This document shows positions 10,681 through 51,529 of a stretch of 51,529 nucleotides of DNA, piece after piece. The DNA comes from Bacillota bacterium. GTDB lineage: Bacteria; Sysuimicrobiota; Sysuimicrobiia; Sysuimicrobiales; Segetimicrobiaceae. A model generated the notes under the pieces. It worked only from the letters and a program-made list of their open reading frames with translations, was not told the DNA's origin and searched no databases. The position numbers and the translations under genes are program-made. Position 1 is the stretch's first letter; each line of letters opens with the position of its first letter. The stretch is taken from the NCBI GenBank assembly GCA_021324255.1, contig JAJPJL010000076.1, positions 1 through 51,529 on the forward strand, given 5' to 3'.

Positions 10681-11562
10681 TCACGACTGGAGGTCGGGGC
10701 TCAGCCTGTCGCGCAGCCAGTCTCCAACCAGGTTGAACCCCATGACCGTCAGCATGATCGCCATCCCGGGAAACGTCGAGTCCCACCACGCCGTCTGGAT
10801 GTAGTTGCGGGCGTCGGCCAGCATTCCGCCCCATGACGGCACGGCCGGATCCACCCCGAGTCCGAGAAACGTGAGCGCGGCTTCGAGCAGGATGTTGTTG
10901 GCGATGCTGAGCGTGGCCAGGACCATCACCGCCCCGAGCGCGTTGGGCAGCACGTGCCGCCAGATGATGCGCGCGTCGCGCACGCCGAGCGCCCGCGCCG
11001 CCTGGATGTAGTCCGCCTCCTTGACCGCGATCGCCTCGCTGCGCACCAACCGCGCGTACGACGCCCACTGGGTGACCGCGAGCACAAACACGATGCGCCC
11101 GAGCCCGGGGCCCAGCACCGCGATCACGACGAGCGCAAAGAGGATAAAGGGAAAGCTGAGCTGCAGGTCGGCGACCCGCATCATCGCCTCGTCCCACCAG
11201 CCGCCGTAGTACCCCGCGGCGAGGCCGAGCGCCGTGCCCGCCACGCTGCTGAGCGCCACGGAGACGAGGCCCACCGTGAGCGAGATCCGGGCGCCGTAGA
11301 TGATGCGGCTCAAGATGTCGCGGCCGATCGCGTCGGTGCCGAGCACGTACGGGGAGCCCCCGGCGAACCAGGCCGGCGGCGTCAATCGCGCACGCAGGTC
11401 CGCAGCTTCGGGGTTGCGCGGCGCCAGCACCGGCGCGGCGACCGCGGCCGCGAGCGACAGCCCGACGAGCCCGAGCCCCAGCGCCAGCGTGAGGCGCAGG
11501 CCGATCGGCGCGCCCCGGCGCACCGGCGCCGGCAGCGCGACCGCCGGCGGCGTCGCCTGCAT
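10681..11562 (-). CDS. Peptide-type ABC transporter permease (DppC-like)
   Basis: 293 residues; last gene of a three-gene importer operon. Contains the signature YVLGTDAIGRDILSRIIYGA and the EAA loop ARALGVRDARIIWRHVLPN, ending RDRLSPDLQS. The start ATG shares an ATGA overlap with the stop of the DppB-like gene. About six membrane helices are predicted from hydrophobic stretches. No ATPase genes follow, so energising subunits must come from another locus or a shared pair. Confidence 0.93.
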   Translation of the reverse strand: MQATPPAVALPAPVRRGAPIGLRLTLALGLGLVGLSLAAAVAAPVLAPRNPEAADLRARLTPPAWFAGGSPYVLGTDAIGRDILSRIIYGARISLTVGLVSVALSSVAGTALGLAAGYYGGWWDEAMMRVADLQLSFPFILFALVVIAVLGPGLGRIVFVLAVTQWASYARLVRSEAIAVKEADYIQAARALGVRDARIIWRHVLPNALGAVMVLATLSIANNILLEAALTFLGLGVDPAVPSWGGMLADARNYIQTAWWDSTFPGMAIMLTVMGFNLVGDWLRDRLSPDLQS

Positions 11563-48998: not shown

Positions 48999-49364
48999 AT
49001 GGGTGCGGTCGCCGAGACGATTCCGGCTCAAAAGCTTCGAAAGGCACGCAGATTGCTCGGCCTCACGCAGGTCGAGGCCGGTCGAGCGCTTGGCCGCGTG
49101 CGGCCTGAAACTGTGTCCCGGTGGGAGAGCCGCTCGGCGAAGGCGCGCCCCCTGCATGCGCAAACGGCGCGGTATCTAATCGAGATCGCGCGCATGCTCC
49201 GGGACGTGGCGCCGGCCGAAGAGGATCGGCGGCGATTCCTCAACTCACCGCAGCCTGACCTGCACGGCAAGACGCCTCACCAAGTCATGCTGGAAGACCC
49301 ACCGTTTGGCGCTCGACAGGTCTACGACCTGCTGGGTCGCGTGCTCCACGGAATTCCGTCCTAA
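48999..49364 (+). CDS. Xre/MbcA-type antitoxin (DUF2384)
   Basis: 121 residues. N-terminal HTH LRKARRLLGLTQVEAGRALG with RPETVSRWESRSAKARPLHA; the C-terminus is the DUF2384/MbcA toxin-binding domain (FLNSPQPDLHGKTPHQVMLE to QVYDLLGRVLHGIPS). ATG with GAGGG eight bases upstream; the frame runs farther upstream but lacks conservation. It is paired with the RES toxin six bases later. Confidence 0.9.
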   Translation: MGAVAETIPAQKLRKARRLLGLTQVEAGRALGRVRPETVSRWESRSAKARPLHAQTARYLIEIARMLRDVAPAEEDRRRFLNSPQPDLHGKTPHQVMLEDPPFGARQVYDLLGRVLHGIPS

Positions 49365-49370
49365 CTCAGC

Positions 49371-49910
49371 ATGCCCAGGGAGCCGTTGCGCCGCGTCGAG
49401 GCGGCCATGGCCGACTTGCGCCCCCGTCGTGTCGAGGGCGTCTGGCACCGCTTCGTCGCCGAACAGCACAAAGAAACCGCAGATAGCGACCGAGGCGCGT
49501 TTGAACATGGTGGTCGCTACAATCCACGCCGCGAATTTGGCGCGCTTTACCTCTCCGAAAGCCCGGCGGCGTGCCGGGCTGAGATGCAGCGACGCCCGGG
49601 CGTCCGTCTCCGGTACTGGCACGCCCGCGTCAGCATCCGCATTACCAAGGCCCTTGATCTCACGGATCCGTCCACCTGTAACGCGTTAGGTGTCGTCAAG
49701 GCAGACCTCGTATCCGACGATTGGGACCTCACGCAAGACATTGCCAGGGCGGCACGGCGTGCCGGCTTTGATGCGTTGATCGTGCCATCCGCCGCAGGGA
49801 ATTACCGCAATCTCGTCGTCTTCAAGGATCTGCTTTCCGAGGAAGAGGCCGCCCCGAGACTGAGCGCGTCACTGCCACGCCTCAAGGCTCCTAGACTGCG
49901 CCCCCGGTGA
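49371..49910 (+). CDS. RES-domain toxin (NAD+-degrading)
   Basis: 179 residues. RES fold signatures: the Arg/Phe region VWHRFV, GGRYNPRREFGALYLSESPA (GRYN and the Glu/Ser region), AEMQRR, and DALIVPSAAGNYRNLVVFKD. Known RES toxins degrade NAD+ and stop growth when freed from Xre. Key residues look intact. It ends 24 bases before an IS21 remnant on the opposite strand. Confidence 0.9.
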   Translation: MPREPLRRVEAAMADLRPRRVEGVWHRFVAEQHKETADSDRGAFEHGGRYNPRREFGALYLSESPAACRAEMQRRPGVRLRYWHARVSIRITKALDLTDPSTCNALGVVKADLVSDDWDLTQDIARAARRAGFDALIVPSAAGNYRNLVVFKDLLSEEEAAPRLSASLPRLKAPRLRPR

Positions 49911-49933: not shown

Positions 49934-50379
49934 GGAATGAGCGTTAGGATCGGGACGGTGGTTCGGGTCGGTCTGATAGAACCCCCGGCCGTAGAGGCGG
50001 ATATGACTGGCAACGCACCGGCCGTGGTGCAGGATCTCGACGGTCTGCGCGGTCGGGCGGACGTCGACACGCGTGCCGGCGAGCCGGTGAGGCGTGGAGT
50101 AAAAATTGTGATCGGCGGCGCCATGGCAGTCGATCCCGACCTTGGACTGTGTCCATTCCGCAAACTCGTACGGGATCGTCGGCAACGAGCGCAGGGCCCA
50201 ACGATCCACCTGTTTCAAACAACGTGCGCCGGGACCCGTCTTGCTTCCGAAACGGTCGATCATTCAGCGCCTCGCGCAGCGGTGCAATTGCCGCACGCGA
50301 CGTCTGAGACTGCGGGCGATGGAACGCATGCTCAGTGCCGGGACCAGTGAAGCTGAAAAATGCTCTTGAGCTGCCGCAT
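49934..50379 (-). pseudogene. Decayed IS21-family transposase (istA) fragments
   Basis: On the minus strand the first codons (MRQLKSIFQLHW, then SMRSIARSL in another frame) resemble the IstA N-terminal HTH. They run directly into C-terminal IstA sequence (ALNDRPFRKQDGSRRTLFET, then after a frame shift DRWALRSLPTIPYEFAEWTQ, DHNFYSTPHRLAGTRVDVRP, TVEILHHGRCVASH). The DDE core is deleted and at least two frame changes are present. istB is absent. The remnant is inactive. Confidence 0.82.
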
Positions 50380-50510
50380 CGCGAGCCTCCGATTGGCCAC
50401 ACCCTCCGTCCTTCTCTCCGTCCGGCTTGAGACCGGTTGCGGAGGACATGGGCCGGAATCCGGGCACCGTGAGACCCCGAGGGGCCCCGGCGCTCCGGAG
50501 GGGCCGCCGG

Positions 50511-50576
50511 TGATCACGAATTACCGGAATCGGTGATCAGGAATTACCGAAACGGGTGATCAGTTTGGTCCGGAAT
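50511..50576. repeat. Triple terminal repeat of the IS21-like element
   Basis: TGATCACGAATTACCGGAAT (50511), a near copy at 50534 (TGATCAGGAATTACCGAAAC) and a third at 50557 (TGATCAGTTTGGTCCGGAAT), with a 23-base period. Repeated TGATCA...CCGGAAT boxes are characteristic of IS21-family ends, where the transposase binds. The end probably finishes with CA at about 50580-50581. Confidence 0.8.
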
Positions 50577-50579
50577 CTA

Positions 50580-51529
50580 CAACGGCGGAAACGTCGCTTG
50601 CGTCGGCGTCGTACTGCGCGTTGAGCCAGTCGCTTCAATGGGGCCGCCGTTTCTCAACGGCGGAAACTTATCATTCCAACCAGGGCGCTGGGGTCAATGG
50701 ACAGCTTCAATGGGGCCGCCGTTTCTCAACGGCGGAAACGCGTGTTGCGTACGTGGTTTCGCTTCCTCGTCGACGCTTCAATGGGGCCGCCGTTTCTCAA
50801 CGGCGGAAACTCCTCAACGTCGAAACGTACTGGCTGGACAAGGTCAAGCTTCAATGGGGCCGCCGTTTCTCAACGGCGGAAACGTCTGCCACGCGTCGGG
50901 GCCGATTACCCAGTCTTCGCTTCAATGGGGCCGCCGTTTCTCAACGGCGGAAACGTGTTCAACGGGCTCAGCCCGCAGGGCGTGGGAGGCCTTCAATGGG
51001 GCCGCCGTTTCTCAACGGCGTAAACCGCTGCCGCGTGTGCGGCGAACCGTGGGACATGGACCCTTCAATGGGGCCGCCGTTTCTCAACGGCGGAAACCTA
51101 CTCGGCCGCCGCGAGCCTGCGCCGGGCTGGGTACCCTTCAATGGGGCCGCCGTTTCTCAACGGCGGAAACCTCGCCACCCAGCGCTGCGTTTCCCTTTTC
51201 GCCGCCTCCTTCAATGGGGCCGCCGTTTCTCAACGGCGGAAACGCGCGCCCCTTTGTTCAGTGATGTCGTGAGACAACACCTTCAATGGGGCCGCCGTTT
51301 CTCAACGGCGGAAACTCGTGCCCTCGGGGGCAAGTGGTACGCGGGGGACACCTTCAATGGGGCCGCCGTTTCTCAACGGCGGAAACTCTGATTGAGCCAT
51401 GAGCATCCAATGGTACCGCGGGGCCTTCAATGGGGCCGCCGTTTCTCAACGGCGGAAACAGGCACTCCGCCCACACAAGCTGCGGATGAAGATCCCTTCA
51501 ATGGGGCCGCCGTTTCTCAACGGCGGAAA
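50580..51529 (+). CRISPR. CRISPR array, 13 repeats plus a truncated one; continues past the window
   Basis: Repeat of 35 bases beginning CTTCAATGGGG and ending GGCGGAAAC, with an internal palindrome CCGCCGTT-TCTC-AACGGCGG. Full repeats start at 50633, 50705, 50776, 50849, 50920, 50991, 51063, 51136, 51209, 51281, 51352, 51425 and 51496 (last cut by the window end). Spacers are 36-38 bases; the first, between the truncated repeat (50580-50592) and 50633, is 40. The repeat at 50991 has one base change near its end. GAAAC-type ends suggest plus-strand transcription. No cas genes are in this window. Confidence 0.96.

Follow-up and report, generated by a model that had tools for sequence, protein, structure and literature searches.

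A type I-G CRISPR array whose leader-distal end carries a cut repeat and a decayed IS21-family element

The window analysed here, 51,529 nucleotides long, is the whole of contig C85 (JAJPJL010000076.1) of a draft genome of 142 contigs with an estimated completeness of 94.85%. Near its right end, read from left to right, three IS21-type boxes run into an IS end; next come an incomplete CRISPR repeat, a spacer of 39-40 bases and a series of intact repeats. The features discussed below are the following:

49002..49910, + strand: Xre/RES toxin-antitoxin pair, a neighbour outside the array (Pfam Xre_MbcA_ParS_C and RES)
49952..50581, - strand: decayed IS21-family remnant with istA pieces and the istA-side terminus (tblastn, and blastn against C5:19146-22026)
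50509-50531, 50532-50554 and 50555-50577, no strand assigned: three 23-bp IS21-type terminal boxes (GGTGATCA...); the complete copy has more at the same end
50581, no strand assigned: last IS base (...GGAATCTACA) and insertion junction; identity with the C5 copy, which has the target duplication TCTATG, stops exactly there
50582..50592, - strand: remnant of the cut repeat, its 5' 11 nt in crRNA direction, GTTTCCGCCGT
50593..50631 (or 50632), - strand: leader-distal, oldest retained spacer, of a length that fits the other spacers
50632 (or 50633)..51529, - strand: CRISPR array on the window contig, repeats 1-13, the 13th being 1 base short at the contig end

The repeats follow each other at intervals of 71-73 bases up to the contig end, where the last 105 bases (51425-51529) are identical to positions 1-105 of contig C127 and include one spacer that is unique in the genome. 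Based on this contig-end overlap, not on reads, we propose that the two contigs join, so that C127 would add 8 repeats to give an array of 21 full repeats. The length of the overlap probably reflects the word length of the assembly. The contig break at this overlap lies inside the array and perhaps marks a branch from strains with differing leader-side spacers. Each repeat is 36 nt long (GTTTCC...ATTGAAG(C/G)). The intact repeat folds into an 8-bp stem (z -3.58); the cut repeat together with the IS sequence folds no better than shuffled sequence (z +0.75). An Rfam search returned no match to a CRISPR family.

Past the 8 repeats, C127 contains about 230 bases with no coding assignment and then, all as open reading frames on the - strand, cas2, cas4-cas1, csb2, csb1, csx17 and cas3. 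PADLOC labels the effector genes Cas7g, Cas56g, Cas8g and Cas3g, corresponding to Csb1 (Cas7), Csb2 (Cas5-6), Csx17 (Cas8) and Cas3. Among the NCBIfam models, TIGR02165 scored above its cut-off and Csx17 reached 142 bits with TIGR04113, just under the cut-off of 150. The Cas4-Cas1 fusion comprises 555 aa with both domains, and Cas2 matches TIGR01573. These effector genes, Cas4-Cas1 with Cas2, a stem-loop repeat with a ATTGAAGC-like 3' end and a leader next to cas2 identify the locus as type I-G. In the type I-G operon of another locus in our collection (L008:2968-3681), the interval between cas4-cas1 and csb2 contains a gene for a HEPN-domain protein in the same orientation.

To the left of the array, the IS sequence could be read against a complete relative in the same genome. 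IS21-family elements have TG...CA ends, multiple internal terminal boxes and target duplications of 4-8 bp. The copy at C5:19146-22026 (2,881 bp) shows all of these features: its istA and istB products exceed the NCBIfam cut-offs for IS21 proteins (NF033546, 254 bits; NF038214, 260 bits), several boxes occur at both ends, the termini, an imperfect inverted pair (TG..GATTCCGG), read TGCGGATTCCGG and TGTAGATTCCGG when written as inverted repeats, and TCTATG flanks the element as a 6-bp target duplication. The window copy is far less complete. Residues of the 558-aa C5 IstA that can still be aligned are 1-58 (83% identity), 313-350 (63%) and 338-437 (60%); the window copy lacks the stretch from 58 to 313, all residues beyond 437, istB and the opposite IS end, and stop codons appear in all three frames shown. 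Together with that end it has lost the second copy of the target, which leaves the insertion without proof from a duplicated target site. The Xre/RES pair directly adjoins the scar at this shortened left side.

Compared with the C5 copy, the scar (49965-50581) is a mosaic: identity is 71% in istA, 79-84% over the 5' part of istA and 92-100% in the end region. A mosaic origin of the element could explain this rise from 71% to 100% toward the IS end, and so could a chimeric assembly, in which the near-identical IS end would have linked an old scar of IS21 next to RES/Xre with an IS copy on the CRISPR side. The abruptness of the change, from 71-84% upstream to 92-100% within the last ~140 bases, and the fragmentation of the draft genome into 142 contigs speak for such a chimera. 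Against it, the box region of the remnant differs from C5 by a deletion, and the longest exact stretch shared with C5 that reaches the IS end measures 50 bases, less than the 105-base overlap between contigs. We consider a chimera very unlikely.

The same 50 bases define the junction. Over this length the window is identical to the C5 copy (blastn), through ...GGAATCTACA at 50581, and since the identity ends at the very next base, the junction is the true terminus of the element. This is the outcome expected of transposition and not of random deletion. What follows is repeat sequence: the 13-mer CAACGGCGGAAAC (50580-50592) occurs in 12 copies on the + strand of the window, and the copy at 50580 is the only one to the left of the first full repeat. 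The initial annotation, made from the sequence alone, had described this segment as the last 13 bases of the repeat. The 13-mer is indeed there, but CA at 50580-50581 fits the IS and the repeat alike, so that only the 11 nt ACGGCGGAAAC are unambiguously repeat. From base composition, the chance expectation on both strands is about 0.002 for the 13-mer and about 0.035 for the 11-mer. Because the junction falls, to the base, where the complete copy with its 6-bp target duplication ends, the proposal in that annotation that an IS21-type end was inserted into a CRISPR repeat is well supported. Its other observations on this side also agree with ours. The three boxes precede the repeat piece, although they end at 50577 rather than at 50576; the adjacent 39-40-base segment, noted there as a 40-base spacer-like sequence before full repeats, is within the 36-40 bases of the other 20 spacers; and the IS end could be mapped from an intact copy, as had been suggested.

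The same annotation stated that array sequence had been lost to the left of the insertion. We searched the whole genome for the first 24 repeat bases, allowing up to 3 mismatches, and obtained 23 matches, every one in a repeat of this array that is either intact or at a contig end. The draft assembly thus does not contain the rest of the cut repeat, and the proposed loss is supported. Orthologous flanks in 12 relatives were only ~70-76% identical, and neither a strain-level sister nor an empty site was seen among them; a search for the IS in 10 genomes likewise found no strain-level relative. An array from the same genus (L039/L020) ends in a full-length repeat beside an unrelated gene.

Which end of the array has been cut depends on the position of the leader, and several lines of evidence place it on the right, on C127. 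First, of the 55 scored Cas4-Cas1 (I-G) loci with an array, 54 have it downstream of cas1, as is the case here (the array finder returned 59 loci with array-like matches, of which L020, L021, L024 and L054 were left out of scoring). Second, among the 27 arrays contained entirely within their locus, mutations occur in the last, cas-distal repeat of 9 and in the first repeat of 1, and they are more numerous in the distal half of 11 arrays and in the proximal half of 3, with 13 ties. Third, the sequence preceding the first repeat can be aligned with its counterpart in the same-genus locus L039 over 77 nt (71% identity, E 6e-12), compared with a best E of 0.8 in two control pairings; in an alignment with more distant loci, TTGACAA and the inverted pair GCGAGCGG/CCGCTCGC recur in the nearest ones. 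Fourth, the 36th base of the repeat is C in the five repeats closest to the IS (50632, 50704, 50775, 50848 and 50919) and G in the other 16. Of 48 consensus repeats of 36 nt, 39 end in GC, 5 in AC, 3 in GG and 1 in AG; as C is the usual last base, it marks the IS end as the old state. This change of the last repeat base, which is also the last base of the handle, looks like a one-time switch from C to G that spread with new spacers and left the five oldest repeats unchanged. Finally, a published integration assay with the type I-G system of M. barkeri gives leader-side products ending in ...GGAAAC and spacer-side products ending in ...ATTGAAGC (PMC10274657). Together, these observations show that the leader lies on the GGAAAC (+ strand) side, and the IS therefore occupies the leader-distal, oldest end of the array.

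The frequent mutation of leader-distal repeats in I-G arrays (the 9 of 27 above) also bears on whether the insertion struck a repeat at all. One could read the 11 bases as a terminal repeat that degenerated naturally and that the IS adjoins by accident. All 11 bases are perfect, however, and they stop exactly at the IS terminus, and the same-genus L039 array closes with a full-length repeat that carries one change. We thus regard a degenerate repeat as highly improbable and retain insertion into an intact one.

The position of the leader also decides the fate of the array. In some other CRISPR subtypes GAAAC is the 3' end of the repeat. The repeats in the window end in GAAAC on the + strand, and, on condition that GAAAC marks the 3' end, the initial annotation had taken the lost side for the leader side and the array as possibly frozen, while naming a leader at the opposite end as an observation that would speak against this view. 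The leader was found at that opposite end: together with cas2 and cas4-cas1 it lies to the right, and the GGAAAC end of the I-G repeat faces it, the reverse of the polarity assumed. Removal of the leader side by the IS is therefore extremely improbable. Since the adaptation genes and the leader are undamaged, nothing points to a frozen array; what has been clipped is its old end. The misreading was a plausible one: judged by repeat direction alone and by what is customary in other subtypes, an immune locus that may be working would have counted as frozen.

We propose the following history. Transposition would have brought an IS21-family element into one of the repeats of a type I-G array, at its leader-distal end or close to it. 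Subsequently a deletion or rearrangement would have removed the element's far half along with the rest of the repeat and everything beyond, and what remained of istA would have decayed. This order of events and continued activity of the array are inferred. Read from C127, the arrangement would be: the leader, 16 repeats ending in G, 5 ending in C, one spacer, 11 repeat bases and the IS scar. Insertion of an IS21 element at the old end, followed by loss of its far half, with leader, adaptation and effector genes left intact, is in our judgment very probably what happened. Judged from its genes and leader, the array could in principle still be transcribed and extended. According to PMC9638904, the Csb2 cut falls 4 nt past the stem of the repeat, on its downstream side; an 8-nt handle results, and Csb2 remains on the 3' hairpin. 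Read from the cas2 side, the array is predicted to yield crRNAs with the 5' handle AUUGAAGG or AUUGAAGC. The last spacer would retain its upstream repeat, and with it the 5' handle, and would lack the downstream hairpin for Csb2. Only this spacer appears to be affected, and it has presumably lost its function.

We also asked what the spacers may recognize. The whole array, used as query against its own genome, matched only the array and IS copies and revealed no protospacer in the genome itself or in the IS. Against phages and plasmids, the IS-side spacer gave best E values of 0.2 and 0.04 with no match covering 80% of its length, hence no significant protospacer; in viral contigs, where the 21-base core served as query for 2 of the 21 spacers, none was found either. 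CreTA-like control of the adjacent RES/Xre pair by the IS-side spacer was considered and rejected. This spacer is the best of the 21: 24 of its 39 positions agree with sequence upstream of xre, a level also attained in 6 of 2000 shuffles and in 1 of 326 other stretches. The agreeing positions are dispersed and form no contiguous seed, and the likeness is not significant once 21 spacers are counted.

To place this case among others, we looked for transposases at array ends. The 25 large ORFs flanking 21 of the 27 contained I-G arrays, one or two per array, had no match to a transposase family; of the other 6 arrays, 5 have no large ORF before the end of the stretch and one is L113. Likewise, L113 was the only match when 83 loci were searched with IstA and IstB by tblastn. 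In this locus, from Thauera aminoaromatica S2 (NZ_AMXD01000005.1), an IS21-like istA/istB element lies between the repeats at 10707 and 13270. It interrupts a spacer (L113:10743-13270), with an apparent target duplication, TTCATG, read by eye. A literature query on IS21 with an interrupted CRISPR locus returned no match. PMC6889575 describes an IS21-family (ISRso19-like) element within a CRISPR repeat in four strains of Xanthomonas citri pv. citri, and a second case in a spacer. That IS21 elements repeatedly land in type I arrays, as in X. citri, Thauera and here, and that the deletions they promote prune the oldest memory while adaptation continues at the leader, is a generalization we hold to be very improbable.

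In gene content, position of the array downstream of cas2 and form of the 36-nt repeat, the present locus equals known type I-G (formerly I-U) systems with a Cas4-Cas1 fusion; it departs from them notably only in its truncated end and in the C to G change at the last position of the repeat. Thauera S2 shares the subtype; there, unlike here, the element sits in a spacer and both halves of the array are kept. The X. citri case is, like this one, an IS21-family element within a CRISPR repeat; there both insertion flanks were recovered, whereas in our case the element has decayed and the far flank is lost. Insertion of IS21 into a CRISPR repeat is thus already published, and the present locus is an ordinary, decayed example of it. 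It adds one more IS21 element in an array, with a clear age polarity: the old repeat state and the scar at one end, the leader and the cas genes at the other.
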